NCBI GenBank assembly: GCA_030653505.1
Contig: JAURZK010000109.1
Coordinates: forward strand, 1-64,000
Direction of reading: 5' to 3'
Source: Rubrivivax sp.
GTDB lineage: Bacteria; Pseudomonadota; Gammaproteobacteria; Burkholderiales; Burkholderiaceae_C
Length of the DNA: 64,000 nt
Shown: positions 4,914 to 49,091 of the stretch, piece by piece
Position numbering within the stretch: position 1 is the first letter of the stretch
Layout of the letters: every line of letters starts with the position of its first letter
The notes under the pieces: model-generated
What the model was told of the DNA's origin: nothing
Seen by the model: the letters and a program-made list of their open reading frames with translations, nothing else
Databases searched by the model: none
Made by a program: the position numbers and the translations under genes

Positions 4914-5734
4914 GCCAGCGCCGCCAGCCGCGGCAGCGCGGCGCGTGTGTTGACGCCGGTGATGCGCGCCGTCTCATCCACCGTCCAGCCGCGCAACGCG
5001 GCCAGCACGGCGCCGATGCGGGGCAGTTCGGCAGGCTCGTTGCGGCCCTGCGCCTGGCCTTCGCGCCGCGCCTCGGCGCTGCGGTACAGCCACTGCGGCG
5101 GGATGTCGGGCGCGTCGGTCTCCAGCACCAGGGCGGTCTCGGGCAGGGTCCGGGCCAGCTTGCGGATCTGCAATGCGCGTTCGTAGCTGAGCGTGCCGCC
5201 GAAGCCGAGCCTGAAGCCCAATGCGACGAAGGCCGCCGCCTGCACTGCGCTGCCGTTGAAGGCGTGGGCGATGCCGCCGGGCACGGTGCAACGCCGCAGC
5301 CCGGCCAGCAGGCCGTCGGCAGAGCGCCGCACGTGCAGGATGACGGGCAGGCCGGCATCACACGCCAGTTGCAGCTGGGCGCGGTAGAAGCGATCCTGGC
5401 GTGCGCGATCGGTGCCCTGAACGAAGTGGTCCAACCCGATCTCACCCACCGCCACCAGGCGCGGGTCGTCGCGGCGGGCCTGCAGCGCAGCGGCCAGGCG
5501 TTCCAGGTCGGCGTCTTCGGCGCGGTCAACGTACAAGGGATGGATGCCCAGCGCGTAGGCGGCGTCGTAGCGGTGCGCAAGCTCGCGCACAGCGTCGAAG
5601 TTCGCCACCGCCACCGCAGGCAGCACCAGGCCGCACACGCCCGCCGCGCGGGCACGCTGCACCACGTCGGCGCGGTCGGCGTCGAACTCGGCGGCGTCGA
5701 GATGGCAGTGGCTGTCGGTCCAGGTGGGGCCCAT
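4910..5734 (-). CDS. TatD family hydrolase/deoxyribonuclease
   Basis: MGPTWTDSHCHLDAAEFDADR...VAVGEIGLDHF...VILHVRRS...LVLETDAPDIPPQ. Confidence 0.9.
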   Translation of the reverse strand: MGPTWTDSHCHLDAAEFDADRADVVQRARAAGVCGLVLPAVAVANFDAVRELAHRYDAAYALGIHPLYVDRAEDADLERLAAALQARRDDPRLVAVGEIGLDHFVQGTDRARQDRFYRAQLQLACDAGLPVILHVRRSADGLLAGLRRCTVPGGIAHAFNGSAVQAAAFVALGFRLGFGGTLSYERALQIRKLARTLPETALVLETDAPDIPPQWLYRSAEARREGQAQGRNEPAELPRIGAVLAALRGWTVDETARITGVNTRAALPRLAALA

Positions 5735-5820
5735 GCCGCGATGATGCCCTGGCTGGGCAGGCGGCCGCTGCACCGCTGCCCGCAACGTGATACCGTGCTT
5801 TTCGCCATGCCCCGTACGCC

Positions 5821-6783
5821 ATGAAGAAGGCCCCGCTGTACAGCCGTTCCCCGCGCCGCGCCGCGCCGACGGCCGCGGAATCGCCTGCGGCTGCCGACGC
5901 CGCAGCCGGGCCCGCGCCGGCCGCGCAGCACGCAGCCGGCACCACACTCCGCAAGACGGGGGCGCGTGCCTCCCGGCTGAATGCCGCGTTGTGGGCCGCC
6001 GGGGGTGCCCTGCTCACGGCGGTGCTGATGCTCGGTCTGCTGCAGCTGCGCCCAGGACAGCGGCCCATTACCCAGGACGACATCGACACCGCCGTGCGGC
6101 AGTCGCTCGAGAAGGAACCCCTGCCCTCTGCCGCAGCCAAGGCCTACGAGGCCATATTGCCCTCGGTGGTGCGTGTCGTCGGCCTGATGGACGACAAGGA
6201 CGACGGCGAGGACAAGCCCGAACAGCGCGCGATGGAGCGCAGCCTGGGCACCGGCGTGGTGATCATCGACAACGGCACCATCCTCACCAACCTGCACGTG
6301 GTCACCGGTGCCAGGAAGATCCGCGTGCGCTTCGCCAACGGCCACGAGAGCGACGCCACGATGGTCGGCGCCCAGCCCGAGAACGACCTCGCCGTGCTGC
6401 GCGCCGAAAGCCTGCCCGACGACCTCGAAGCCGCCACCATGCGCAGCACGGGCGACCTGCGGCCGGGCGACCATGTCATCGCAGTCGGCCACCCCTTCGG
6501 CATCGGGCCTTCGGTGAGTTACGGCGTCGTCTCGGGGCTGAAGCGCCAGTTCCGTTCACCCGACGGCGACAAGCCGGACGAGAAGCCGCTGTCCAACCTG
6601 ATCCAGTTCGACGCCGCGGCCAATCCCGGCAACAGCGGCGGGCCGCTGGTCACGATGGACGGCCAGGTGGTGGGCGTCGTCACCGCGATCCTGAACCCGT
6701 CGGAACAGCGCACCTTCATCGGCATCGGCTTCGCGGTGCCGATCGAGAATGCCGCCAACGCCGCCGGCATGCCACCGTTCTGA
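5821..6783 (+). CDS. Membrane-anchored trypsin-like (S1C/Deg-type) serine protease without PDZ domain
   Basis: N-terminal TM segment; catalytic motifs TNLHVV, ENDLAVL, NPGNSGGPL. Confidence 0.85.
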   Translation: MKKAPLYSRSPRRAAPTAAESPAAADAAAGPAPAAQHAAGTTLRKTGARASRLNAALWAAGGALLTAVLMLGLLQLRPGQRPITQDDIDTAVRQSLEKEPLPSAAAKAYEAILPSVVRVVGLMDDKDDGEDKPEQRAMERSLGTGVVIIDNGTILTNLHVVTGARKIRVRFANGHESDATMVGAQPENDLAVLRAESLPDDLEAATMRSTGDLRPGDHVIAVGHPFGIGPSVSYGVVSGLKRQFRSPDGDKPDEKPLSNLIQFDAAANPGNSGGPLVTMDGQVVGVVTAILNPSEQRTFIGIGFAVPIENAANAAGMPPF

Positions 6784-6816
6784 TGCCGCCACCGCGCGAC
6801 CCCGAGGAAACCTTCC

Positions 6817-7800
6817 ATGTCCGAGCACGCCGAGTCCACCGCCACGCTGATGGAGCGCATCCTCTACGAGGTCAAGCGTGTCGTCGTCGGGCAGGACCGC
6901 TTCCTGGAACGTGTGCTGGTGGCCATGTTGGCGCAAGGCCACCTGCTGGTGGAAGGTGTGCCGGGGCTGGCCAAGACGCTGACCGTCAAGACACTCGCGC
7001 GCACCGTGCGCGGCAGCTTCAAGCGCATCCAGTTCACGCCCGACCTCGTGCCTTCCGACCTGGTCGGCACACGCATCTACAACCAGAAGAGCGGCGAGTT
7101 CGGCACCAGCCTGGGGCCCGTGTTCGCCAACCTGCTGCTCGCCGACGAGATCAACCGTGCACCGGCCAAGGTGCAGAGCGCGCTGCTCGAAGTGATGCAG
7201 GAACGCCAGGTGACGATCGCCGGTGAGACGCACAAGGTGCCCGACCCCTTCGTCGTCATGGCCACGCAGAACCCGATCGAGACCGAAGGCACGTATCCGT
7301 TGCCCGAGGCCCAGGTCGACCGCTTCATGATCAAGGTGCTGGTGGACTACCCCACCGACGAGGAAGAGTTCGTCATCGCCGAACGTGTCACCGGCGCACC
7401 GGTCGACATCAACGCCGTGGCCGACACGCACCAGCTGGCCGCGCTGCAGCGTGAATGCCGCGCCGTGTTCTGCGACCCCTCGCTGATGCAGTACGCGGTG
7501 AAGCTGGTGGGCGCGACGCGCCGGCCCGCGAAGTACGACATGGCCGATCTGGCCAAGTACCTCACCTACGGCTGCAGCCCGCGCGCCACCATCGGCCTCA
7601 TCGAGGGCGCCAAGGCGCTGGCGATGATGCGCGGCCGCAGGTACGTGCTGCCCGAGGACATGGTCGACCTCGTGCCGGACGTGTTCAGGCATCGGCTGGT
7701 GCTGAGCTACGAGGCGCTGGCCGAGAACGTCACACCCGATGCGCTGGTGCAGCGGCTGCTGAAGAAGCTGCCCCCACCCGACAAGCCCCTGCAGTCATGA
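6817..7800 (+). CDS. MoxR family AAA+ ATPase
   Basis: VVVGQDRFLERVLVAMLAQGHLLVEGVPGLAKTLTVKTLA...ADEINRAPAKVQSALLEVMQE...ATQNPIETEGTYPLPEAQ. Confidence 0.93.
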   Translation: MSEHAESTATLMERILYEVKRVVVGQDRFLERVLVAMLAQGHLLVEGVPGLAKTLTVKTLARTVRGSFKRIQFTPDLVPSDLVGTRIYNQKSGEFGTSLGPVFANLLLADEINRAPAKVQSALLEVMQERQVTIAGETHKVPDPFVVMATQNPIETEGTYPLPEAQVDRFMIKVLVDYPTDEEEFVIAERVTGAPVDINAVADTHQLAALQRECRAVFCDPSLMQYAVKLVGATRRPAKYDMADLAKYLTYGCSPRATIGLIEGAKALAMMRGRRYVLPEDMVDLVPDVFRHRLVLSYEALAENVTPDALVQRLLKKLPPPDKPLQS

Positions 7801-7895
7801 AGCCCCCAGGCTCACTTCGTTCGCCACCCTCCAGGGGGGCACTTGCTGCGGCGCGGCGGCGCCGGCGCCGCGCAAGACCTTGGTCAAAGGCCGAG
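7798..7895. repeat. REP-like intergenic repeat (betaproteobacterial GCCCCC...GGGGGGC dyad type), copy A
   Basis: agcccccaggctcacttcgttcgccaccctccaggggggcacttgctgcggcgcggcggcgccg; resembles the copy at 23998. Confidence 0.55.
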
Positions 7896-7900
7896 GCGCG

Positions 7901-8863
7901 ATGAGCGAGGCCGCAGCCCCACCCGACCAGCTGCTGCGCGAGCTGGAGTGGACGGTGATCCGCAAGCTCGACGGTCTGCTGCAGGGCGACTACCGCACGC
8001 TGTGGCGGGGTGCGGGTGTCGACCTCGCCGACCTGCGTGAGTACCAGGCCCACGACGACGTGCGCCACATCGACTGGAACGTCACCGCACGGCTGCAGCA
8101 ACCCTACGTGCGCCAGTTCCACGAAGACCGCGACATGAACGCCTGGTTCCTGCTCGACCTGTCGGGCAGCGTCGACTTCGGCAGCGCCGACACCACCAAG
8201 CTGAACGTTTCGGCGGGCTTCGTGGCCACGCTGGCGCGTGTCATCACGCGGCATGGCAACCGGGTCGGCGCCCTGCTCTACGGCAGCGCGGTCCACGGCA
8301 TGATGCCGCCGCGGGCCAGCCGGCTGCATGTGCTGGAACTGCTGCAGCGCATGCGCGCACCGCAGGTGAAGCAGCCGCCCGGCACCGCCACGGTGCTGGC
8401 CGACCTGCTGCAGGCCGCCGACGGCCTGATCAAGCGGCGTGGCCTGATCTTCGTGGTGTCCGACTTCATCAGCCAACCCGGCTGGGAAGATGCACTCGCA
8501 CGCCTGGCGCGCCGCCACGACGTCGTCGCGGTGCGCCTGTGGGATCCCCTGGAGATGGCGCTGCCCGACGTCGGCCTCATGACCCTGGAAGATGCCGAGA
8601 CCGGCGAGCAGGTCTTCGTCGACGGCTCCGACCCTGCCTTCCGCGAGCGCTACGCCGCCATCGCCGAGGAGCAGGAGCGTGTGCTGATGGACAGCCTGGC
8701 CCACAGCGGCGCCGACGTGCTGGAACTGGCCACCGACGACGACATGCTCGAGACCCTGATGCGCTTTGCCGATCTGCGCCGCCAGCGCGCGCGACTGAAG
8801 GTGCCGCTGCGCTTTCCTGCCACGCCGCGACGCGCCGCATTCATCTCGGAGGCCGCGCCATGA
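7901..8863 (+). CDS. DUF58 domain-containing protein
   Basis: GDYRTLWRGAGVDLADLREYQAHDDVRHIDWNVTARLQQPYVRQFHEDRDMNAWFLLDLSGSVDF; start MSEAAAPPDQ chosen over upstream in-frame ATG in the repeat. Confidence 0.9.
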   Translation: MSEAAAPPDQLLRELEWTVIRKLDGLLQGDYRTLWRGAGVDLADLREYQAHDDVRHIDWNVTARLQQPYVRQFHEDRDMNAWFLLDLSGSVDFGSADTTKLNVSAGFVATLARVITRHGNRVGALLYGSAVHGMMPPRASRLHVLELLQRMRAPQVKQPPGTATVLADLLQAADGLIKRRGLIFVVSDFISQPGWEDALARLARRHDVVAVRLWDPLEMALPDVGLMTLEDAETGEQVFVDGSDPAFRERYAAIAEEQERVLMDSLAHSGADVLELATDDDMLETLMRFADLRRQRARLKVPLRFPATPRRAAFISEAAP

Positions 8864-9897
8864 GCTTCCTGTGGCCGACGATGCTGTGGCTGCTGGCGTT
8901 GCTGCCGCTGCTGGTGCTGCTGTACTTCTGGGTGATCAAGCGCAAGCGCAAGACCACCGTCCGCCTGGCCAGCATCAACGTCGCCAAGCTGGCCGCCGGG
9001 CGCGGCCCGGGCTGGCGCCGCCACGTGCCGCCCGTGCTGCTGCTGCTGGCCATGGCCGCGCTGCTGCTGGCGGTGGCGCGGCCCACCGCCATCCTGACAC
9101 TGCCGCTGGCCGAACGCACCATCATCCTGGCGATGGACGTTTCGGGCAGCATGCGCGCCGAGGACGTGAAACCCAACCGCCTGGTGGCCAGCCAGGAAGC
9201 GGCCAAGGCCTTCGTCAACAACCTGCCACGCGAAGTGCGCGTGGGCGTGGTGTCCTTCGCCGGCACGGCTGCCGTGGTGCAGGCGCCCACGGACAGCCGC
9301 GAGGACGTGCTCAAGGCCATCGACCGTTTCCAGTTGCAGCGCGGCACAGCCACCGGCAGCGGCATCATCCTCAGCCTGGCCACGCTGTTCCCGGACGACG
9401 GCATCGAGATCCAGCATGTCACCGGGCAGCGCAACTTCCCCGGCGGCAACAACAGCATCGCGAACAAGGAGGCCAAGCCCTTCACGCCGGTGCCGGCGGG
9501 TTCCTACAACTCGGCCGCCGTGATCATGCTCACCGACGGCCAGCGCACCACCGGCCCCGACCCGCTGGACGCCGCCAAGATGGCCGCCGAACGCGGCATC
9601 CGTGTCTACACCGTGGGCATAGGCACCACCAGCGGCGAGATCATCGGCTTCGAAGGCTGGAGCATGCGCGTGCGGCTGGACGAAGAGACGCTGAAGAACG
9701 TCTCGGTGCTGACACATGGCGAGTACTTCTACGCCGGCACGGCCGAAGACCTGAAGAAGGTCTACGAGTCGCTCAGCTCGCGCATGGTGGTCGAGCGCAA
9801 GGAAGTCGAGATCACCGCGATCTTCGCCGCGCTGGGTGCGCTGCTGGCGGTGGTGGCCGCGACGCTGTCGCTGTGGTGGTTCGGCCGCGTGGCCTGA
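8860..9897 (+). CDS. VWA domain-containing membrane protein (BatA-like)
   Basis: MSFLWPTMLWLLALLPLLVLLYFWVIKRK...IILAMDVSGSMRAEDVKPNR (MIDAS); ATGA overlap with DUF58 gene. Confidence 0.9.
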   Translation: MSFLWPTMLWLLALLPLLVLLYFWVIKRKRKTTVRLASINVAKLAAGRGPGWRRHVPPVLLLLAMAALLLAVARPTAILTLPLAERTIILAMDVSGSMRAEDVKPNRLVASQEAAKAFVNNLPREVRVGVVSFAGTAAVVQAPTDSREDVLKAIDRFQLQRGTATGSGIILSLATLFPDDGIEIQHVTGQRNFPGGNNSIANKEAKPFTPVPAGSYNSAAVIMLTDGQRTTGPDPLDAAKMAAERGIRVYTVGIGTTSGEIIGFEGWSMRVRLDEETLKNVSVLTHGEYFYAGTAEDLKKVYESLSSRMVVERKEVEITAIFAALGALLAVVAATLSLWWFGRVA

Positions 9898-35835: not shown

Positions 35836-37128
35836 ATGTCAGACGCCCCACACGCCCACCTTCAGGCGCTCGACCAGCCGCTGCCCGCCGACCTCACCGG
35901 CACGGGCCAGGGTTGGTTCACGCGCTACCGCCGTTACCCCGTGTTCAGCGTGCCCTGGGCGCGCCTGCGCAGCCTGTCCTTCGGCACCGTGGCTTTGCTG
36001 GCGCTGGCGGTGGTGGTGGGCCCGTCGGCGCTGGACGAGCCGCTGGACCGCATCCCCGTGGGCGGTTTTGCGCAACTGGGGATGCAACTGCTGATGCCGC
36101 TGCTGCTCGGCCCCTGGCTGGGCAGCCGCGTGCGCGCGCTGGGCCTGCCCGAGAAACGCGAGTACGCGGCGCTGGTCTCCGCCGTCGTGGCGACGGTACT
36201 GGCGGTGCTGGCCTTCCACCAGTTTGCCGCCGAGCCGATGAAGCAGCGCCTGGCCGAGCTCACCGGCGCGGTCGATGCCAGCGGCCAGCGCAAGCGCGTG
36301 GCGGTGGCCATCGGCGTGATGGTGCGCAACGCCGACGAAGCGGCATCGGCCGCCGCCGTCGGCGCGCCGTCCAGGATGCCCGGCCCAGAAGCCAGGCTCA
36401 CCAACGCCATCGCCAGCATCGCAGTCAGCTTCTGGCTTGGCGGTGGCGCGGCGCTGTGGGGCTGGCGGCGCGAACGTGCCGGCCTGGCCGCGTTGGCGCG
36501 TGAACGTGAACTCGCGCAGGCGCAGGCGCAGCGGCGCGAGGCCGAACTGCGGCTCAGCGTGCTGGCCGCGCAGGTGGAACCGCACTTCCTCTTCAACACC
36601 CTGGCCGGCGTGCGCAGCGCCATCGCCACCGACCCGGCGCGCGCCAGCGAGATGATCGACCGCCTCGTCGACTACCTGCGTGCTGCCATCCCGCGCCTGC
36701 GCAGCAGCGGCGGCAGCGAGGCCTCGCTGGGCGGGCAGCGCGAGATCGTGCGCGCCTACCTGGGCCTGATGGCCGCACGCATGCCACGTCTGCGCTACAC
36801 CATCACGGCCGCGCCCGAACTGCTGGCCGCACCCTGCCCGCCGTTGATGCTGATCTCGCTGGCCGAGAATGCCGTCAAGCACGGTGCCGAGCCCAAGATC
36901 GGCCCGGTGCACATCGAAGTGACGGCGCAACGCAACGCCGCCGGCGGGCTGGACGTGACGGTGGCCGACGACGGCGCCGGCTTCGGCGCCAGCGCAGGCG
37001 GCAGCGGCATCGGCCTGACGAACATACATGAGCGGCTGCGCGAGATGTACGGCGGCCACGCCGCGCTGCTGCTCAAGGCCCGAGCGCAAGGCGGCGTCGC
37101 CGCCACGATCACCCTGCCCCCGGAGTGA
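35836..37128 (+). CDS. LytS/YehU-type sensor histidine kinase
   Basis: LRLSVLAAQVEPHFLFNTLAGVRSAIATDPARASEMIDRLVDYLRAAIPR...GIGLTNIHERLREMYG. Confidence 0.9.
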   Translation: MSDAPHAHLQALDQPLPADLTGTGQGWFTRYRRYPVFSVPWARLRSLSFGTVALLALAVVVGPSALDEPLDRIPVGGFAQLGMQLLMPLLLGPWLGSRVRALGLPEKREYAALVSAVVATVLAVLAFHQFAAEPMKQRLAELTGAVDASGQRKRVAVAIGVMVRNADEAASAAAVGAPSRMPGPEARLTNAIASIAVSFWLGGGAALWGWRRERAGLAALARERELAQAQAQRREAELRLSVLAAQVEPHFLFNTLAGVRSAIATDPARASEMIDRLVDYLRAAIPRLRSSGGSEASLGGQREIVRAYLGLMAARMPRLRYTITAAPELLAAPCPPLMLISLAENAVKHGAEPKIGPVHIEVTAQRNAAGGLDVTVADDGAGFGASAGGSGIGLTNIHERLREMYGGHAALLLKARAQGGVAATITLPPE

Positions 37129-37152
37129 ACCGGAATACACCCGAGTACAGCC

Positions 37153-37935
37153 ATGTCGAACACCGAGACCGCTGCCCCCACCGCACTGATCGCCGACGAC
37201 GAGGACCTGCCGCGCGCCGAACTGCGCCGCATGCTGAGCCTGGCCTGGCCCGAGCTGCGCGTGGTGGCCGAGTGTGAACACGGCCCGGCCGCGGTCGAGG
37301 CCATCGAGGCGCATGCGCCGCTGGTCGCCTTCCTCGACATCCGCATGCCCGGCTGCAGCGGCCTGGACGTGGCACGCGCCGCCAGCGGGCGCTGCCACAC
37401 CGTCTTCACCACGGCCTACGACAGCCATGCCGTGGCCGCCTTCGAGGCCGGCGCGGGGGACTACCTGCTCAAGCCCATCGCCGCCGACCGCCTGGCGCAG
37501 GCCTGCGCGCGCCTGCGTGAACGCCTGCAGGGCCGCAGCGAGGCGCCCGACCTCGAGGCCCTCGTGCAGCGCCTCGCCGGCCGACTCCACCAGGGCCGCG
37601 AGACTGCACCGCGGCTGCGCTGGCTGAGCGCCAGCGTCGGCGACACCATCAAGATGTTCGCCATCGACGAGGTGCTGTTCTTCCAAAGCGACGAGAAGTA
37701 CACCCGTGTCGTCACCGCCGGCGACGAAGCGCACGTGCGCAAGCCGCTGCGCGAGATCGCCGACGGCCTGGACCCCGAGCACTTCTGGCAGGTGCACCGC
37801 GGCGCCATCGTGCGTGCCAGCGCCATCGCGCGGGCGCAGCGTGACGAACTCGGCCGCATCACGCTGCACCTGCGCCAGCACCGCGAAACGCTGCCGGTGA
37901 GCCAGGCCTGGGCCTGGCGCTTCAAGCCGATGTGA
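37153..37935 (+). CDS. LytTR-family response regulator
   Basis: REC domain ALIADDEDLPRAELRRML...FLDIRMPGCSGLDVA; C-terminal LytTR IKMFAIDEVLFFQSDEKYTRVVT...VHRGAIVRASAIA. Confidence 0.92.
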   Translation: MSNTETAAPTALIADDEDLPRAELRRMLSLAWPELRVVAECEHGPAAVEAIEAHAPLVAFLDIRMPGCSGLDVARAASGRCHTVFTTAYDSHAVAAFEAGAGDYLLKPIAADRLAQACARLRERLQGRSEAPDLEALVQRLAGRLHQGRETAPRLRWLSASVGDTIKMFAIDEVLFFQSDEKYTRVVTAGDEAHVRKPLREIADGLDPEHFWQVHRGAIVRASAIARAQRDELGRITLHLRQHRETLPVSQAWAWRFKPM

Positions 37936-37987: not shown

Positions 37988-39895
37988 ATGTTGGCCCCTG
38001 CAGCGCTGCTGCCACTCCCTGCGAGCCGCTGGCGCGCCCTGCGCGGCCCGCTGGCGGCCGGGTGTGCACTGCTGGCGCTGGCCGCCAGCGCCGCGTGGTT
38101 CGCCTACTGGGTGTCGCTGAACAGCGCCATGCGCGACCTGCAGGACGCTGCCGTGCGCCGGCTGGACAGCGTGGCCGCGACGCTGGACAGCGCACTGGCC
38201 CGCTTCGACTACCTGCCCGCGCTGCTGGAGACCACGCCGGCCGTGATGGACCTGCTGGCCCGCCCCGGTGACCCCGCCCTGCGCGACCAGGCCAACCGCA
38301 CGCTGGTGCGCATCAACGCCATCGCCGGCGCCGACATGCTCTTCGTGCTCGACGCCGGCGGCGACGCCCAGGCCGCAGCCGACTGGGACCAGCCCGCGAT
38401 CACCACGCTGGGCCACAACTACAGCTACCGCCCCTACATGAAGGACGCGCTGGCGTCCGGGCGCGGGCGCTTCTTCGGCGTCGGTGCCACCAGCCGCATC
38501 CCGGGCTACTTCCTGTCCTATGCGCTGAAGGGCAACGAGCGCACGCTGGGCGTGGCCACGGTGAAGGTCAATCTCGACGCCGCCGAGCGCGTGTGGGCCA
38601 CGCTGCCCGGCGACATGCTGGTCAGCGACGAGCGTGGCGTGGTCATCCTCAGCTCGCGGCCGGCATGGCGCTTCCAGGCCCTGCGGCCGCTGACGGCCGA
38701 AGAGCGTGCCGTGGTGGCCGAGGAGAAGCCCTACACCGCCGACCCGGCCGTGCTGCCCTGGGCCGGCGACGGCCCGCTGCAGACCGGCCAGCACATCGTC
38801 GTCGACGGCGCCGTGCACCTGGTCACCGCGCGCGCGCTGCCGACGCAGCGCTGGCACATGCAGGCCCTGGCCCCGATGGCGCCGGCCTACGGCCGCGCCC
38901 GCAACCAGGCCTTGATGGCGGCGCTGGCCGCGGCCGTGGCCGGGCTGCTGTTGATGGCCGCCTGGCAGAGCCGGCGCAACGGCATGCAGAAGCTGGCTAC
39001 GCAGGCGGCGCTGCAGGCCGCGCACGACACGCTGGAAACCCGTGTCGCCGAACGCACGCGCCAGCTGTCGGACGCCAACACCTCGCTGGCCGCGGAGATC
39101 GAGACGCGCAAGGCGGTCGAGCAGAGCCTGCACGCCACGCAGGCCGAACTCGTGCACGCCGCGAAGATGGCGGTGCTGGGGCAGCTCTCGGCGGGCCTGG
39201 CGCACGAACTGAACCAGCCGCTGGCCGCGCTGCGCACGCTGTCTGACAACGCCGTGGTGCTGATGGACAAAGAGCGCCTGCCCGAGACCCGCGGCAACCT
39301 CGAGCGCATCTCGCAGCTCGTCGGCCGCCTGGGCGAGCTGACGCGCCGGCTCAAGACCTTCGCCCACAAGCCCGGCGAAAAACTGGTGCCCACACCGCTG
39401 GCCGCGGCCGTGGCCAACGCACAGGGCCTGCTGGCCGACCGGCTGAAGCGGCTGGACGTGGCCTTCGAGGTGCAGGTCCGGCCCGAGGGCCTGTGTGCGC
39501 TGGCCGACCCTGGCCTGGTCGAACAGGTCCTGGTGAACCTGATGGTCAACGCGCTGGATGCCATGGCCGCGATGGACGCCACCCCCTCGACGCGCCGCTT
39601 GCGCGTGGTGGCCGACCTGCACCCCAACGCGCAGGGCGACCGGGTGCACCTGCAGGTGCAGGACAATGGCCCAGGCATCGCGCCCGAGATGCGAGCCCGC
39701 CTCTTCGAGCCCTTCGCCACCAGCAAGCCCGCGGGCGCCGGGCTGGGCCTGGGGCTGATGATCTCGCAGCGCATCGTGCGCAGCTTCGGCGGCGAGCTCG
39801 ACTTGCGCGAGGCCACCGAGCCCGGCTGGGGCGGCGCCTGTTTTCAGATCGACCTGCCCGCCTGCACGGCCGCCCCCTTCCCCACCACCACCTGA
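37988..39895 (+). CDS. dctB: DctB-type C4-dicarboxylate sensor histidine kinase
   Basis: Periplasmic NYSYRPYMKDALASGRGRFFGVGATSRIPGYFLSYAL; GQLSAGLAHELNQPLAALRTLSDNAVVLMDKERL; HATPase. Confidence 0.87.
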   Translation: MLAPAALLPLPASRWRALRGPLAAGCALLALAASAAWFAYWVSLNSAMRDLQDAAVRRLDSVAATLDSALARFDYLPALLETTPAVMDLLARPGDPALRDQANRTLVRINAIAGADMLFVLDAGGDAQAAADWDQPAITTLGHNYSYRPYMKDALASGRGRFFGVGATSRIPGYFLSYALKGNERTLGVATVKVNLDAAERVWATLPGDMLVSDERGVVILSSRPAWRFQALRPLTAEERAVVAEEKPYTADPAVLPWAGDGPLQTGQHIVVDGAVHLVTARALPTQRWHMQALAPMAPAYGRARNQALMAALAAAVAGLLLMAAWQSRRNGMQKLATQAALQAAHDTLETRVAERTRQLSDANTSLAAEIETRKAVEQSLHATQAELVHAAKMAVLGQLSAGLAHELNQPLAALRTLSDNAVVLMDKERLPETRGNLERISQLVGRLGELTRRLKTFAHKPGEKLVPTPLAAAVANAQGLLADRLKRLDVAFEVQVRPEGLCALADPGLVEQVLVNLMVNALDAMAAMDATPSTRRLRVVADLHPNAQGDRVHLQVQDNGPGIAPEMRARLFEPFATSKPAGAGLGLGLMISQRIVRSFGGELDLREATEPGWGGACFQIDLPACTAAPFPTTT

Positions 39896-41271
39896 TGAGC
39901 AGCCTCAGCACCCCCGAGATCGCCGTCGTGCTCGTCGAAGACGACGAAGACGTGCGCCACGGCACCGCCCAGGCGCTGGAACTGGCGGGGCTGCACGTGC
40001 ACTGCTACGGCAGCGTCGAGGCCGCCCGTCGCAGCGTGGGCCCGAGCGCACCCGTCGTGCTGTTGTGCGACGTCAACCTGCCCGGCATGCACGCCACCGA
40101 CTGGCTGCCCGAGGTGCGCGCGGTGGACGCCGACCTGCCGATGATCCTCGTCACCGGCCACGGCGACATCGCGATGGCCGTGAAGGCACTGCAGCAGGGC
40201 GCCTACGACTTCATCGAGAAACCGGCTTCGTCCGACCGCATCGTCGCCGTGGTGCAGCGCGCGGTGGAAAAGCGCCGCCTGGTGCTGGCGCTGCGCGCCG
40301 CCGACGGCCGCGCCGCGGCGCAGCGGGGCATCGAGGCGGTGATGATCGGCCGCTCGGCGGCCATGCAGGCGCTGCGCCGCACCGTGCTCGACCTGGCCGG
40401 CACCACCGCCGACGTGCTGGTCTACGGCGAGACCGGCAGCGGCAAGGACCTGGTGGCGCGCTGCCTGCACGACTACAGCCCGCGCCGCGCCGGGCCCTTC
40501 GTGCCCATCAACTGCGGCGGCCTGCCCGAGACGCTGGTGGAAAGTGAACTCTTCGGCCACGAGGCCGGCGCCTTCACAGGGGCGCAGAAGGCGCGCGCCG
40601 GCAAGCTCGAGTCCGCCGACCGGGGCACGCTCTTCCTGGACGAGATCGAGAGCATGCCGCTCGCCGTGCAGGTCAAGCTGCTGCGTGTGCTGCAGGAACG
40701 CACGGTGGAACGCCTGGGCTCCAACCGCGCGCTGCCCGTGGACTGCCGCGTGGTGGCGGCCAGCAAGACCGACCTGCTGGTGGCCAGCGAGGATGGCCGC
40801 TTCCGCGCCGACCTGTACTACCGCATCGGCGTGGCCTTCATCCACCTGCCGCCGTTGCGCGAGCGGCGCGAGGACATCGGCATGCTCTTCGAGCACTTCG
40901 CGCTGCTCGCCGCCAGCCGCTACGGCCGCGACCTGCCGGTGCTGCAGCCGGCCCAGCTGGCCGAACTGCTGGCCTACGACTGGCCCGGCAACCTGCGCGA
41001 GCTGGGCAACGTGGCCACGCGTTTCGTGCTTGGGCTGGTCACCGGCCGGCTCACCCCTGGCAGCGGTGGCGCGGCGGCGCCGACCGCCGCGACGCAGTCA
41101 CTGAACGAACAGCTCGACCAGTTCGAACGTGCGCTGATCGCCGACACCCTGCGCCGCCTCGGGGGCGACGTGACCGCCAGTGCGAAGGCGCTGCAACTGC
41201 CCAAGCAGACGCTCTACGACAAGATGAAGCGGCTGCAGGTCCAGGGCGCCGACTACCGCAACGCCGGCTGA
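39895..41271 (+). CDS. dctD: DctD-type sigma-54-dependent response regulator
   Basis: REC domain; AAA+ VYGETGSGKDLVARCLHDYSPR...ESELFGHEAGAFTGAQKAR (GAFTGA loop); C-terminal HTH. Confidence 0.92.
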   Translation: MSSLSTPEIAVVLVEDDEDVRHGTAQALELAGLHVHCYGSVEAARRSVGPSAPVVLLCDVNLPGMHATDWLPEVRAVDADLPMILVTGHGDIAMAVKALQQGAYDFIEKPASSDRIVAVVQRAVEKRRLVLALRAADGRAAAQRGIEAVMIGRSAAMQALRRTVLDLAGTTADVLVYGETGSGKDLVARCLHDYSPRRAGPFVPINCGGLPETLVESELFGHEAGAFTGAQKARAGKLESADRGTLFLDEIESMPLAVQVKLLRVLQERTVERLGSNRALPVDCRVVAASKTDLLVASEDGRFRADLYYRIGVAFIHLPPLRERREDIGMLFEHFALLAASRYGRDLPVLQPAQLAELLAYDWPGNLRELGNVATRFVLGLVTGRLTPGSGGAAAPTAATQSLNEQLDQFERALIADTLRRLGGDVTASAKALQLPKQTLYDKMKRLQVQGADYRNAG

Positions 41272-41298: not shown

Positions 41299-43311
41299 TC
41301 AGCCGGGCACGGGGCTGGCCTGCGCCGACGCAGGGTGGGGGACACGCGCCGCGCCGCCGTCACCGGCCCGCACCAGGTCGGCGAGCGTGGCGCTGTAGAT
41401 CACCGTCTGCGGGTCGTCCGGGTCGGCCTTGACGGCAAAGCCGAAGCGGTCGAAGAGCGCACGCATGCGCGGGTTCTCGTTGCGGTAGGTGGTGGCGTGG
41501 TAGGTCTTCGCGCCCATCGCGCCCCAGTCGATCAGCATCTGCATCAGGTGCCTGCCGATGCCCTGGCCGCGCAGGTCGCTGCGGCGCGAGAACGAAACCT
41601 CGTAGGTGCCAGCGTCGTCCATGCGGAAGGCGTGGGCCACGCCGATGATCTCGTCGTCGAGCTCGACGATGAAGGCCGCGTGCTGCCGGTAGTCCAGCGT
41701 GTCGTGGTACAGGCGCGAGAGCCTTGCCGGCGACGTGAGGTAGTCCACCGTGACGGTGCCCATGTAGCGTGTGCGCCGGTCGTCACCGCTCAGGCGGGTG
41801 ATGTAGGCGCCGATGGCTTCGATGTCGTCCTTCGTCGCCGGGCGCAGCAGCGCGTGGCGGCCGTCCTCCAGCGCGATCAGCTGCGCCGGTATCGCGTCCA
41901 CGCCCTGCATCGACGGCAGCGCGCGCGCCTCCTTGGCCAGCAGGCTGCGCCAGTCCGGGTGCGCCACGCCCAGCATCGCGTCGACGCGCTGCGGGTCGTT
42001 GAGGTGGCGCAGGTCGGCCACGCCCTGTTCGGTGACCACCACCACCGGCAGGTCGGCGCCTATCGTGTGGTGCGCGCCCTCGGGGTGCAGCGCCACGATC
42101 TTGCTCTGCTGCGCGCCGTCGCGGCGGTCGACCACGCTGGGCAGCGCGATGATGGCGATGCCGGCCCGCGCCCACGACGCGCCGAGCGCGAAGTCGAACT
42201 GGCCCCCGACGTCGGAGTAATAGTGGTTGGCGATCATCGAGGCACAGACCTCGCCGCTCAGGCTGACCGCCAGCGCGCTGTTGATGCTGGCCATGGCCGG
42301 GTTGTGCTTGATGACCGCCGGGTCGTTGACGATTTCCTGCGGCAGCACCGCGAACGCGGGGTTGTCGTGCATGGTCTCGTAGAGCGCGCGGCTGCCGAGC
42401 ACGAAGCCGACGACGATGCGCTCGCGCAGCGCCGGGCCGTGCGTGTCGCGCACCAGGCCGGCGCGGTAGAGCGCCAGCACGCCGTCGGAGAACAGCTCCG
42501 ACCACACGCCGCGCACCGACACGCCCAGCGCGACGAGTTCGTTCGCCACCGCATTCGGGATCTTGCCTATGCCCAGCTGGATGGTGTGCGGCAGCGCCGT
42601 GCCGCCGGGCTCCGGCGCGGCCCGGCGCAGCAGCGCGACGATGCCGCGGGCGATGGCGCCGGTCTGCGCTTCCTGCGCGGGCGAGGTGGGCGCCATGTGG
42701 TGCTCGCACAGCGGCTCGTCGATCTCGACGACGAGATCGAAGTCAGACAGGTTCATCGCGCAGCCGCTGTCGATGCGCTGCCCGGTGGCGGGGTCATCGA
42801 GGGTGGCGATGTGCCAGCGCGGCATGCGCGCATTGACCATCGCCACCTTGAACAGCGCCTGCCTGACCGGCGCGAAGTCGATGCCCGCGTTCAACCCCAG
42901 CGTCACGCGGCCCTGGGCGTCGGGCGGCGAGGTGTGCGCGAAGGCCACCTGCGGCCGCCAGGGGCCTTCGAACAGCCTGGGCACCTGAGACAGGTTGCAG
43001 CGGATGTTGCGCGCCAGTCCGGCGTTGACCAGCTCGCGCACGCCCGGGCCGATGAACGGCGTGACGATGCCCACGCCGCCCATCACGGCGCGCCGCCAGC
43101 CCGTGGCCGGGCCCAGCGCCAGCACCTGGAAGACATCGACGCCGGCAAAGCGCTGCGGCTGCTCGAAGATCAGGCGTTCGACGGCGTCGATGCGGCCCGC
43201 GTTGCCGGGCAGGTAGCACACCGGCCGGGCACCCTGCACGGCGTGGCGCGCCAGCCGCCGCGTGACGATGTCCAGCGCGGTGTCGAAGGGGGTCGTGCGA
43301 ATTGCGGTCAT
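41299..43311 (-). CDS. Bifunctional acetyl-CoA hydrolase/transferase family protein with C-terminal GNAT acetyltransferase domain
   Basis: IQLGIGKIPNAVANELVALGVSVRGVWSELFSDGVLALYRAG...FALGASWARAG...; C-term ALLRPATKDDIEAIGAYITRLSGDDRRTRYMG...GQGIGRHLMQMLIDWGA. Confidence 0.9.
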   Translation of the reverse strand: MTAIRTTPFDTALDIVTRRLARHAVQGARPVCYLPGNAGRIDAVERLIFEQPQRFAGVDVFQVLALGPATGWRRAVMGGVGIVTPFIGPGVRELVNAGLARNIRCNLSQVPRLFEGPWRPQVAFAHTSPPDAQGRVTLGLNAGIDFAPVRQALFKVAMVNARMPRWHIATLDDPATGQRIDSGCAMNLSDFDLVVEIDEPLCEHHMAPTSPAQEAQTGAIARGIVALLRRAAPEPGGTALPHTIQLGIGKIPNAVANELVALGVSVRGVWSELFSDGVLALYRAGLVRDTHGPALRERIVVGFVLGSRALYETMHDNPAFAVLPQEIVNDPAVIKHNPAMASINSALAVSLSGEVCASMIANHYYSDVGGQFDFALGASWARAGIAIIALPSVVDRRDGAQQSKIVALHPEGAHHTIGADLPVVVVTEQGVADLRHLNDPQRVDAMLGVAHPDWRSLLAKEARALPSMQGVDAIPAQLIALEDGRHALLRPATKDDIEAIGAYITRLSGDDRRTRYMGTVTVDYLTSPARLSRLYHDTLDYRQHAAFIVELDDEIIGVAHAFRMDDAGTYEVSFSRRSDLRGQGIGRHLMQMLIDWGAMGAKTYHATTYRNENPRMRALFDRFGFAVKADPDDPQTVIYSATLADLVRAGDGGAARVPHPASAQASPVPG

Positions 43312-43386
43312 GGGTGGCGCGTCCGGTAGGTGGAAGTGTTCCGTGTAAGCCCAGAGTCAGCCTGGAGGTCAATGCTGCACTGCAAC

Positions 43387-43698
43387 ATGATTGCACATTC
43401 CGTACCACTCCAACTGGGGCTCGAGGATCTGCTGGGTGATCTGCATCACGCGCGCCGCACCCGGGACCTGGGTCGCCTGGCCTGGCTGGCCTACTGCGAA
43501 GTCCGTCGCTGGGCGCGCATGGCCGGCGAGCACGCCCTGGCCGAGCACTCGTCGGAGCTCATCACCCACGCGCCGCACACCAGCCGCGAGGCTTTTCTGG
43601 CCGAGGTCGACGAACTGATCTTCGAACTGGAACTGGCACGCCAGCGTGGCCTGGCCACCGCAGCCACCGCGGCCACCGCGGACAGCACGCAGCACTGA
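43387..43698 (+). CDS. Hypothetical protein
   Basis: ORF open 43330-43698; likely start MIAHSVPLQLGLEDLLGDLHHARRTRDLGRLAWLAYCEVRRWARMAGEHALAEHSSELI. Confidence 0.55.
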   Translation: MIAHSVPLQLGLEDLLGDLHHARRTRDLGRLAWLAYCEVRRWARMAGEHALAEHSSELITHAPHTSREAFLAEVDELIFELELARQRGLATAATAATADSTQH

Positions 43699-43855
43699 CA
43701 CGCTGAAGCGCCGTCACCCACGGCGCACGGAATTCCGGACGACCGGCGCCGCCACCGCCCGGCCGGCCGTGCAGCGGCCGCCACCGCAAACCGGCCTCGG
43801 CTTGCAAGTCACTGTCACCAAAGGACTTTTTTATTTCGCCGTGGCGGGGCGCCGG

Positions 43856-43870
43856 TGGCACGAAGGCTGC
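43856..43870 (+). promoter_or_regulatory. Candidate sigma-54 (-24/-12) promoter of frdCAB-dcu
   Basis: TGGCAC-gaagg-CTGC; GG and GC doublets at exact -24/-12 spacing; 63 bp from promoter end to frdC ATG. Confidence 0.55.
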
Positions 43871-43932
43871 GATAGGTGAACCAGACAGCAGCGCGGGCAA
43901 GGGGCCTGCGCAGCGCAACGCGAGGTTCACCG

Positions 43933-44778
43933 ATGTCCCCTGTTTCCGCCAACGCCTCCCGGCAGCAGACCCTGGTCGACGGCGTCGGCCTCACCGAACG
44001 CCCGCGCAAGAGCCGCTGGCCGGCGCGCCTGGACCTGGCGCAGAGTGTCAGCGGCGGCATGCTGGCCCTTTTCATGTGGGGCCACATGTTCTTCGTCTCC
44101 AGCATCCTCGTCAGCCCCGACGTGATGTGGATGGTGACCAAGGCCTTCGAGGGCTACTTCGTCTTCGGCACGCCCTACCCGCTGATCGTCTCGGGCGTGG
44201 TGGCCGTGGTGCTGGCCCTCGTCGTGGGCCACGCCCTGCTGGCGATGCGCAAGTTCCCCGGCAACTGGCGACAGCTGCACCTGTTCAGGGCGCACCGCCG
44301 GCTGCTGGGGCATGAGGACACCACGCTGTGGTGGGTGCAGGCCGTCACCGGCTTTGCGCTCTTCTTCCTGGCCAGCGTGCACCTGTACCAGATGCTGATG
44401 CACCCGGGCGCCATCGGCCCCTACGAGTCGGCCGCCCGTGTCTGGCACGGCTGGTGGCCGCTCTACCTGGTGCTGCTGCTGGCGGTGGAACTGCACGGCG
44501 GCATCGGCCTGTACCGGCTGGCCGTGAAATGGGGCTGGATGGACAGCGCCGACCCCGACCGTTCACGCCGCCGCCTGCGCACCGCGAAGTGGGCCTTGAC
44601 CGTCTTCTTTCTCGTACTGGGGCTGTTCACGCTGGGCGCCTACCTGCGCATCGGCCACGCCCAGCAGCACCTGGTCGACCCCGTCTACACACCGGCCTGG
44701 CTGGCCAACCCGCCGACGGCCGCGCCGCCCGCCTGGTGGCCGAGCTGGCTGGAACGGCCTTTCCGCATTCACCCCTGA
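43933..44778 (+). CDS. frdC: Fumarate reductase di-haem cytochrome b subunit (epsilonproteobacterial/Wolinella type)
   Basis: ARLDLAQSVSGGMLALFMWGHMFFVSSILVSPDVMWMVTKAFEGYFVFGTPYPLIVSGVVAVVLALVVGHALLAMRKFPGNWRQ...HLYQMLMHPGAIGPYESA...VELHGGIGLYRLAVKWGW. Confidence 0.93.
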   Translation: MSPVSANASRQQTLVDGVGLTERPRKSRWPARLDLAQSVSGGMLALFMWGHMFFVSSILVSPDVMWMVTKAFEGYFVFGTPYPLIVSGVVAVVLALVVGHALLAMRKFPGNWRQLHLFRAHRRLLGHEDTTLWWVQAVTGFALFFLASVHLYQMLMHPGAIGPYESAARVWHGWWPLYLVLLLAVELHGGIGLYRLAVKWGWMDSADPDRSRRRLRTAKWALTVFFLVLGLFTLGAYLRIGHAQQHLVDPVYTPAWLANPPTAAPPAWWPSWLERPFRIHP

Positions 44779-44796: not shown

Positions 44797-46791
44797 ATGA
44801 ACGTGATCTATACCGACGTGCTGGTGATCGGTGGTGGCCTGGCCGGCCTGCGCCTGGCCATCGCCGCCAAGCGCCGCGGCCACGAGACCATCGTGCTCAG
44901 TCTGGTGCCGCCCAAGCGCAGCCACTCCAAGGCCGCCCAGGGCGGCATGCAGGCCAGCCTGGGCAACGTCATCAAGGGCGAAGGCGACAACGAGGACGTG
45001 CACTTCGAGGACACCGTGCGCGGCAGCGACTGGGGTGCCGACCAGGAGGTCGTGCGCATGTTCGTGAACACGGCGCCCAAGGCCGTGCGTGAACTCGCCG
45101 CCTGGGGTGTGCCCTGGAGCCGGGTGCGCCAGGGCGACCGCACCGTGGTCATCAACGGCCAGCGTGTGACCATCACCGAGAAGGAAAGCGCCCACGGCAC
45201 CGTGGCGCAACGCGACTTCGGCGGCACGAAGAAGTGGCGCACCTGCTATGTGGCCGACGGCACCGGCCACGCCATGCTGCAGGCCGTGGGCGACCACGCC
45301 ATCGGCGACGGCATCGCAGTGCACGAACGCACCGAGGCCATCGCGCTCATCCACGATGGCAGCCGCTGCTACGGCGCCGTGGTGCGCCACCTCGTCACCG
45401 GCGAGCTCATCGCCTACGTCGCCAAGGCTACGGCGATTGCGGCCGGTGGCGCCGGGCGCATCTACCGCGTGACCACCAACGCGACCATCTGCGAAGGCAT
45501 GGGCGCGGCAATAGCGCTGGAGACCGGCGTCGTCGCCCTGGGCAACATGGAGGCGGTGCAGTTCCACCCCACCGGCATCTTCCCGGCGGGCATCCTGGTG
45601 ACCGAAGGCTGCCGTGGCGACGGCGGGCTGCTGCGCGACGTGGCCGGCCACCGCTTCATGCCCGACTACGAGCCCGAGAAGAAGGAGCTGGCCTCGCGCG
45701 ACGTGGTGAGCCGGCGCATGGAAGAGCACATCGCCAAGGGCCTGGGTGCGCAGAGCCGTTTCGGCGAACACCTGTGGCTGGACATCACGCAGCTCGGCGC
45801 GCACCACATCCAGCACAACCTGCGCGAGGTCTACGAGATCTGCCAGCACTTCCTGGGCGTCGACCCGGCGAAGGACTGGATCCCGGTGCGCCCTGCGCAG
45901 CACTACACCATGGGCGGCGTGCGCACCCTGCCCTCGGGCGAGAGCCCCACGCTGAAGGGCCTGTTCTCTGCCGGCGAAGCCGCCTGCTGGGACATGCACG
46001 GCTTCAACCGCCTGGGCGGCAACTCGGTGGCCGAGACCGTGGTGGCCGGCATGATCGTGGGCGAGCGCATCGCCGACTTCTGCGACCGCGAAGAACTGGA
46101 CATCCCGCTGGGCCTGGTGCGCGAGGCCGTCGAGCGCGAACGCGGCGCGCTCGACCAGCTGCTGCACGGCAGCGGCACCGAGCAGGCGACCCCGCTGCGC
46201 GTCGCCATGCAGCAGGTCATGACCGACAAGGTCGGCATCTTCCGCCACGGCGACAAGCTGGCGCAGGCGGTGGACGAACTTCAGCAGCTGCTGCGCCGCA
46301 GCCGCCAGATCGGCGTGCCGTGCAAGGCGCCCGGCGCCAACCCCGAACTGGTGGCCGCCTACCGCACGCAGAAGATGCTGAAGGTGGCGCTGACGGTGGC
46401 CTACGGCGCGCTGGTGCGCACCGAAAGCCGCGGCGCGCACTACCGGCAGGACCACCCGCGCCGTGACGACGCGGGCTGGCTGCGTCGCACGCTGGCGACC
46501 TGGAAGCACCCCGGTGACACGCTGCCCACGCTGGCCTACGAGCCGCTGGACGTGATGAAGATGGAACTGCCCCCGGGCTGGCGCGGCTACGGCGCCAAGG
46601 ACTATCTCGACCACCCCGACACCCCTGCCCGCCAGGCCGAGGTGGCGGCGCTGAAGGCCCGTCTGGCCGGCGCCGACCGCCATGCCGTGCAGGCCGAGCT
46701 GCTGCCCTTTGCGCACCAGCTGCCCGAACGACTGCGCGGCCGCAACGAACGCATCGACGAACCCTTCGCGACGGCACCGGTCGCGGCCTGA
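44797..46791 (+). CDS. frdA: Fumarate reductase flavoprotein subunit
   Basis: [50 protein letters not shown]...[32 protein letters not shown]...[27 protein letters not shown]. Confidence 0.96.
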
Positions 46792-46817: not shown

Positions 46818-47690
46818 ATGAACGCCACCCCCGAAGTGATCGCGGTGCCCATCGACACCTCTGCGCTGGTGCGCAGCGGTGGCTGCAGCGACCCCGCCTG
46901 CGGCTGCGGCAAACGCGCGCTGCCGGCCAACGCGCGTGCCGCCGCGGCCACGCGTGTGCAGCGCACGCTGCAGATCCAGGTGCTGCGCTACAACCCGCAG
47001 GACAAGGCCAGCCGGCCGCACCTGCAGACCTTCGCCATCGAAGAAGCCGACGGCATGACGCTGTTCATGGCGCTCAACGAGATCCGCGAGACGCAGGACC
47101 CTTCGCTGCAGTTCGACTTCGTCTGCCGCGCCGGCATCTGCGGCAGCTGCGCCATGCTCATCAACGGCAAGCCGGCCCTGGCCTGCCGCACGCTGACCAA
47201 GAACCTGGCGGCCAGCTTCACGCTGGCGCCGCTGCCCTTCTTCGAGCTCATCGGCGACCTCTCGGTGGACACCGGCAAGTGGATGCGCGGCATGAGCGAG
47301 CGCATCCAGGCCTGGGTGCACACCCAGGGCCACGACGGCGACCTCACGCGCATCGAAGAGCGCATGGACCCCGAGCTGGCCGAGAAGATCTACGAACTCG
47401 ACCGCTGCGTCGAGTGCGGCTGCTGCGTCGCCGCCTGCGGCACGGCGCGCATGCGGCCCGACTTCGTCGGCGCCGTGGCGCTGGCCAAGGTGGCGCGCTT
47501 CAAGCTCGACCCGCGCGACACGCGTACCGACGCCGACTTCTACGAGATCGTGGGCGACGACAGCGGCGTCTTCGGCTGCATGAGCCTGCTGGCCTGCCAC
47601 GACGTCTGCCCCAAGAACCTGCCGCTGGCCACGCAGATCGCCTACATGCGGCGCTCGATGGTCAGGTTCGCGCTCGGCGCAGCGGCCTGA
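46818..47690 (+). CDS. frdB: Fumarate reductase iron-sulfur subunit
   Basis: FVCRAGICGSCAMLINGKPALACRT...LDRCVECGCCVAACGTARMRPDFVG...GCMSLLACHDVCPKNLPLATQIAYMRR. Confidence 0.96.
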   Translation: MNATPEVIAVPIDTSALVRSGGCSDPACGCGKRALPANARAAAATRVQRTLQIQVLRYNPQDKASRPHLQTFAIEEADGMTLFMALNEIRETQDPSLQFDFVCRAGICGSCAMLINGKPALACRTLTKNLAASFTLAPLPFFELIGDLSVDTGKWMRGMSERIQAWVHTQGHDGDLTRIEERMDPELAEKIYELDRCVECGCCVAACGTARMRPDFVGAVALAKVARFKLDPRDTRTDADFYEIVGDDSGVFGCMSLLACHDVCPKNLPLATQIAYMRRSMVRFALGAAA

Positions 47691-47750: not shown

Positions 47751-49091
47751 ATGGTACTCACACTTCAACTGGCGATCATCCTGATCTGCCTGTTCTACGG
47801 CGCCAGGAAGGGCGGCGTCGCACTCGGGCTGCTGGGCGGCATCGGCGTCGTGCTGCTGACCTTCGCCTTCGGCCTGCCCCCGGGCAAGCCGCCGGTGGAC
47901 GTGATGCTGACCATCGTCGCGGTGGTCGCCGCGTCGGCCACGCTGCAGGCCTCGGGTGGCCTGGACGTGCTGCTGCAGATGGCCGAGAAGCTGCTGCGCC
48001 GCAATCCGAAGTACGTCTCCATCCTGGCGCCGTTCACGACCTGCGGCCTGACCATGCTGTGCGGCACCGGGCACGTGGTCTACACCATGCTGCCCATCAT
48101 TTACGACGTGGCGATCAAGAACGGCATCCGGCCCGAGCGCCCGATGGCCGCTTCGTCCATCGCCAGCCAGATGGGCATCATCGCCAGCCCGGTCTCGGTG
48201 GCCGTGGTGTCGCTGGTGGCCTTCCTGGCCAAGGCGCCTGAAGGCGCGCCCATCATCGACTTCGTGACCCTGCTGTCCATCACCATCCCGTCGACCCTGG
48301 TCGGCGTGCTGATGATCGGCATCTTCAGCTGGTTCCGCGGCAAGGACCTCGACAAGGACGAAGAGTTCCAGGCCCTGATCAAGGACCCGGAAGCGCGCAA
48401 GAACGTCTACGGCGACAGCATCTCGCTGCTGGGCCAGAAGCTGAGCACGCATCAATGGACCGCGATGTGGATCTTCGTTGGCGCCATCGTCGTCGTCGCG
48501 CTGCTCGGCGCCTTCCCGGCGCTGCGCCCGCTGGTTGCCGGCAAGCCGCTGTCGATGGTGCTGGTGATCCAGATGTTCATGCTCATGGCCGGTGCGCTGA
48601 TCATCATCTTCACGAAGACCAACCCGGCCGAAATCGGCAAGAACGAGGTCTTCCGCGCCGGCATGATCGCCGTCGTGGCGGTGTTCGGTGTCGCCTGGAT
48701 GGCCGACACGGTGTTCGAGGCCAACCTGCCCCTCATCAAGGCCAGCCTGTCGGACATCGTCAAGCTCTACCCCTGGACCTTCGCCATCGCGCTGCTGCTG
48801 GTGTCCAAGCTGGTGAACTCGCAGGCTGCCGCCATCGCCGCGATGGTGCCTTTGGGCCTGTCCATCGGCGTGCCCCCGGGTTACATCGTGGCCTTCGCCG
48901 CCGCCTGCTACGGCTACTACATCCTGCCCACCTACCCCAGCGACCTGGCCACCATCCAGTTCGACCGTTCGGGCACGACCAAGATCGGCAAGTACGTCAT
49001 CAACCACAGCTTCATCCTGCCGGGGCTGATCGGCGTAACGAGTTCCTGCGTCGCCGGCTGGCTGCTCGCCGCCAGCCGCGGGCTGGTCTGA
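47751..49091 (+). CDS. Anaerobic C4-dicarboxylate transporter DcuA/DcuB family
   Basis: [148 protein letters not shown]. Confidence 0.95.

Follow-up and report, generated by a model that had tools for sequence, protein, structure and literature searches.

The window, by which we mean the whole stretch of 64,000 nucleotides that was analysed, contains a set of fumarate reductase genes lying downstream of genes for a two-component system of the DctBD type, and several sequence elements could be recognized in the region just before frdC. The features are given below, together with the two other frdC loci (L013 and L014) in which counterparts of the elements are found.

37988–39895, + strand: dctB, sensor histidine kinase (HisKA, HATPase_c) whose periplasmic domain resembles DctB sensor domains of known structure
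39895–41271, + strand: dctD, NtrC-family response regulator (Pfam: receiver, sigma-54 activation domain, Fis-type HTH)
41299–43311, - strand: acetyl-CoA hydrolase/transferase-GNAT fusion (CoA-transferase and acetyltransferase families matched weakly)
43725–43740, no strand assigned: DctD-type enhancer site 1, GCACGGAATTCCGGAC, core CGG-N4-CCG; counterparts in L014 (7765) and L013 (7807)
43757–43772, no strand assigned: DctD-type enhancer site 2, GCCCGGCCGGCCGTGC, core CGG-N4-CCG; 32 bp from site 1
43805–43832, - strand (reverse orientation): IHF-like element, CAAGTCACTGTCACCAAAGGACTTTTTT
43856–43870, + strand: sigma-54 -24/-12 element, TGGCACGAAGGCTGC, a near-consensus match conserved in the window, L013 and L014
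43933–44778, + strand: frdC, fumarate reductase cytochrome b of the Wolinella/epsilon type (NF010072, 363 bits, cut-off 187)
44797–46791, + strand: frdA, flavoprotein subunit (NF006383, 1113 bits, cut-off 663)
46818–47690, + strand: frdB, iron-sulfur subunit (NF010071, 411 bits, cut-off 264)
47751–49091, + strand: dcu, anaerobic C4-dicarboxylate transporter (NF009136, 709 bits, cut-off 396)

The periplasmic domain of DctB matches the PDB entries 3e4o (DctB, E = 3.8e-27), 3by9 (E = 3.4e-25) and 2zbb, and the alignment shows good conservation around YSYRPYM and GATSRIPGYFLSYA. DctD keeps the GAFTGA motif and is 76% identical to the DctD of L013 and 73% identical to that of L014, and RpoN is encoded in the genome (433 bits, cut-off 277). 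The Frd subunits exceed the cut-offs of the epsilonproteobacterial-type NCBIfam models. The gaps along the cluster are 18 bp (frdC-frdA), 26 bp (frdA-frdB) and 60 bp (frdB-dcu), and dcu is probably carried on the same transcript as frdCAB. The fusion gene placed between dctD and frd has no conserved neighbour counterpart in L013 or L014 and is probably outside the system. A small ORF of about 107 codons (43375–43698, + strand) lies just before the promoter region; it matches no family, and the other frd loci lack a homologue. On the other side, a pair judged from its sequence to be a LytS-like sensor kinase and a LytTR-like response regulator adjoins dctB upstream (~36480–37935, + strand).

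The original prediction had placed a sigma-54 promoter immediately upstream of frdC, and each of its particulars was found again: the sequence TGGCAC-GAAGG-CTGC at 43856–43870, the exact GG/GC spacing, the single mismatch in the -12 box (CTGC for TTGC) and the distance of 62 bp to the frdC ATG at 43933. The -12 box of the window reads CTGCG rather than TTGCW, and the element has a PWM score of 14.8, joint second in the window. The exact -24/-12 motif occurs four times in the 64 kb against 2.06 expected, and 41 matches are seen against 46.7 expected when one mismatch is allowed. The motif alone is thus at chance level, and its significance stems from its conservation together with the flanking DctD-type sites. 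In the alignment of the three upstream regions, TGGCACG and TGCGAT are invariant across the window, L013 and L014; conservation in orthologous intergenic regions had been named as a check of the original prediction.

A comparison of 88 frdC upstream regions (80 frdC loci from genome contigs and the others from a genome search) revealed how restricted this arrangement is. Only the window, L013 and L014 reached a -24/-12 score of 14 or more no further than 115 bp from the frdC start or match, and no locus but these three has an orthologous DctD nearby; the association (3/3 vs 0/85) has a Fisher p of 9e-6, with a threshold and a distance limit that were set post hoc. In L014 dctB, dctD and frdCAB are contiguous and are followed by a dicarboxylate-type transporter and then a fumarase. 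In L013 some 6.8 kb and other genes separate dctD from frdC, yet the sites stay at frdC. L247 proved to be the same locus as L013, and no additional independent locus of the DctD type emerged when the FrdC search was widened to the genus and its relatives, so that the full layout is seen in three independent loci, all within one clade of four FrdC sequences (window, L013, L014 and L012) that has full support in the FrdC tree. A perfect sigma-54 site far from the gene was also seen: in L006 it lies 408 bp from frdC with an FNR-like box closer, and in L133 (G102:C262) the sequence TGGCACGCGGATTGCA is found about 408 bp before frdC, with the FNR-like box TTGACGTGCATCAA nearer the gene.

The strongest evidence for a DctD/sigma-54 promoter comes from the tandem DctD-type sites, which did not form part of the original prediction. 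The published rhizobial DctD site is TGTGCGgaaatCCGCACA (PMC11077940), and its CGG-N4-CCG core is matched at both window sites; site 1 is close to the rhizobial site, and site 2 is degenerate, with GC-rich central bases. In the window, L013 and L014 alike, the palindromes are spaced at exactly 32 bp, and the distance from the end of the second palindrome to TGGCAC is 83–86 bp in all three, the core being one position off in each of the L014 sites. As a positive control, the same scan of S. medicae dctA (pSymB) found two sites 33 bp apart with a gap of 78 bp. A combined model of two DctD sites plus the -24/-12 element ranked the window, L013 and L014 first to third among the 88 regions (top scores 37.8, 36.8 and 34.4; next region 29.2), and none of 1000 dinucleotide shuffles of each of the three regions reached its own observed score; since the model was built after the sites had been seen, these ranks and shuffles describe the strength of the pattern and are no blind test. 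The involvement of DctD that had been suggested for this promoter is thereby backed by two sites at conserved spacing in three divergent loci with orthologous DctD.

Between the enhancer sites and the -24/-12 element, the AT tract aaggacttttttatttcgcc described earlier as a possible IHF site is present at 43821–43840, and most of it is covered by the element at 43805–43832. A CAAGT plus AAGGACTTTT block is invariant in the window, L013 and L014. Compared with WATCAA-N4-TTR, the window agrees at 6/9 core and 5/6 tract positions in the lambda H' register; the shuffle p values are 0.04 for the window, 0.002 for L014, where the match is stronger, and 0.053 for L013. Consensus WATCAA-N4-TTR sites occupy this interval in some promoters of activators of the same class. 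The element order and spacing kept in the three loci give the IHF proposal moderate support, the evidence from the window alone (p = 0.04) being weak, and the element fits moderately well a reverse-oriented IHF site in the register of lambda H'. The conserved GGAC within it is not explained by IHF, which would not need these bases, and AAGTCC-N11-GGACTT forms a perfect dyad in L014 and a near-perfect one in the window. It is therefore a real possibility, which we rate somewhat below an even chance, that within the same DctD/sigma-54 promoter the CAAGT-AAGGACTTTT element is bound by DctD or by an additional regulator (redox or carbon) and IHF takes no part. Against this stand the agreement of the element with the lambda H' layout and the like elements that precede sigma-54-like sites, in the same register, next to other activators (L127, L180, L192).

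The AAGTCC-N11-GGACTT dyad had also been considered as the DctD site itself and was dropped, as like elements are found near unrelated activators and CGG-N4-CCG fits the published site. Across 401 genomes GGACTT combined with a -24/-12 element showed no visible enrichment over the reversed control and is thus no general feature of promoters. In L127 (~5014–9559) cydAB genes are immediately preceded by a FisR-like PAS/sigma-54 activator. The interval between them contains GGACTTTTTT and TGGCACGGATCGTGCG and resembles the frd promoter, except that the spacing is reduced by about one helical turn. Several of the FisR-like activator loci L166, L168, L172, L180, L184, L187 and L192 carry TGGCACG-N3-CTTGAT, with GA for GC at -12, and many such loci have CAAGTC...TTGATT-type sequences upstream.

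A less circular check than the combined model was made with the core and its spacing alone. A DctD-type core 70–100 bp before a -24/-12 element was found in 20 of 401 genomes of the family against one match in the reversed control, among the matches listed, and several of these adjoin DctD-like genes and precede amino-acid transporter genes. This indicates that the 70–100 bp spacing is a general architecture for activators of the DctD/AauR kind. Near DctD homologues of 53–64% identity, the composite site was not found within 1.5 kb. The core may be common to many NtrC-family regulators of the DctD/AauR kind, and as similarly spaced sites also precede amino-acid transporter genes and asparaginase-like genes adjoining DctD-like regulators, the frd promoter could be imagined to answer to another activator (AauR-like or other), dctBD being nearby for another purpose. 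We regard this as improbable: the sites track orthologous DctD in 3/3 loci, their core equals the published DctD site, and no other close DctD homologue was found at E <= 1e-125 in the genome of the window (G000). More improbable still is that the -24/-12 match arose by chance and that a different regulator controls frd from an ordinary sigma-70 promoter. Although the motif by itself is about as frequent as chance predicts in a window this rich in GC and its -12 box is imperfect, the composite architecture is conserved in three divergent loci and absent from the shuffles and from the 85 other frdC promoters.

The sigma-54 promoter had been proposed in place of FNR control, and here too the search agreed. 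The best match to TTGAT-N4-ATCAA before the window frdC is 6/10 in 450 bp, and TTGAYN4RTCAA with up to one mismatch is missing from the intergenic region. Of the 67 other proteobacterial regions upstream of frdC, 32 contain this box (0.1% in shuffles), whereas none of the window, L013 and L014 does; by itself its absence is weak evidence (Fisher p = 0.24), and it is the -24/-12 and enhancer sites kept in these same three loci that argue for sigma-54. L012, from the same MAG as L014, has a frdC promoter of the FNR type with TTGAYN4RTCAA present. The clade of the window, L013, L014 and L012 therefore holds both types, and the promoter type changed there at least once.

A second frdCAB copy of the window's genome was located at L132 (G000:C30:52000-70000; frdC 8584–9348, minus strand), in a different FrdC clade, with the FNR box TTGATGTGCGTCAA about 98 bp upstream of frdC. 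This genome and the MAG with L012 and L014 thus each have one FNR-type and one DctD/sigma-54-type copy. Tentatively, a division of labour can be envisaged, in which the FNR-controlled frd would serve anoxia and the DctBD/sigma-54 copy would be induced by C4-dicarboxylates; having no FNR site, the latter could possibly be induced with oxygen present too.

Taken as a whole, the sequence comparisons make it very likely that 43699–43932 is a DctD-activated sigma-54 promoter of the frdCAB-dcu operon. In this scheme DctB would sense periplasmic C4-dicarboxylates and bring about phosphorylation of DctD, which would then bind to the tandem palindromes at 43725–43740 and 43757–43772. A bend introduced by IHF at about 43805–43832 would bring DctD to the RpoN holoenzyme at 43856–43870, and frdCAB-dcu would be transcribed from a predicted start near 43882. 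By this route fumarate reductase and the fumarate/succinate exchanger would be substrate-induced, with no FNR site.

The closest likeness is to rhizobial dctA, also under DctBD and sigma-54, which has a DctB-type sensor, tandem DctD sites about 32–33 bp apart with the same palindrome core and a similar distance to the -24/-12 element. There the target is the DctA uptake symporter, whereas in the window it is fumarate reductase with a Dcu exchanger, and the window sites are more degenerate, with the IHF-like element in between. In E. coli the fumarate-respiration genes are under C4-dicarboxylate two-component control by DcuSR together with FNR, with sigma-70; for dcuB, control by FNR/CRP and a two-component system is described in PMC2725144. 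Two-component control of fumarate respiration by C4-dicarboxylates is shared with the window, whose frd promoter differs in its sigma-54 element and in having no FNR box. The other betaproteobacterial FNR-type frdC promoters and the second copy of the genome precede homologous frdCAB genes and differ from that of the window in having a TTGAYN4RTCAA box, no DctD sites and no nearby dctBD. In Geobacter sulfurreducens, dcuB was found by primer extension to depend on RpoN (PMC2725144). Sigma-54 control of a fumarate-respiration gene is common to both cases, although the gene reported there is that of the fumarate/succinate exchanger rather than of fumarate reductase; Geobacter dcuB is the nearest, partial precedent for sigma-54 control of fumarate respiration.

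No report of DctD or sigma-54 control of fumarate reductase was found in the mainly non-subscription literature, and the proposed promoter is of a known type on an unusual, new target. In textbooks, fumarate reductase exemplifies oxygen control through FNR. In one clade this control seems to have given way to an enhancer-dependent promoter linked to a sensor of C4-dicarboxylates, a change that would widen the DctBD regulon from uptake of the substrate to fumarate respiration and make the frd promoter of this clade a testable example of a promoter class switch.
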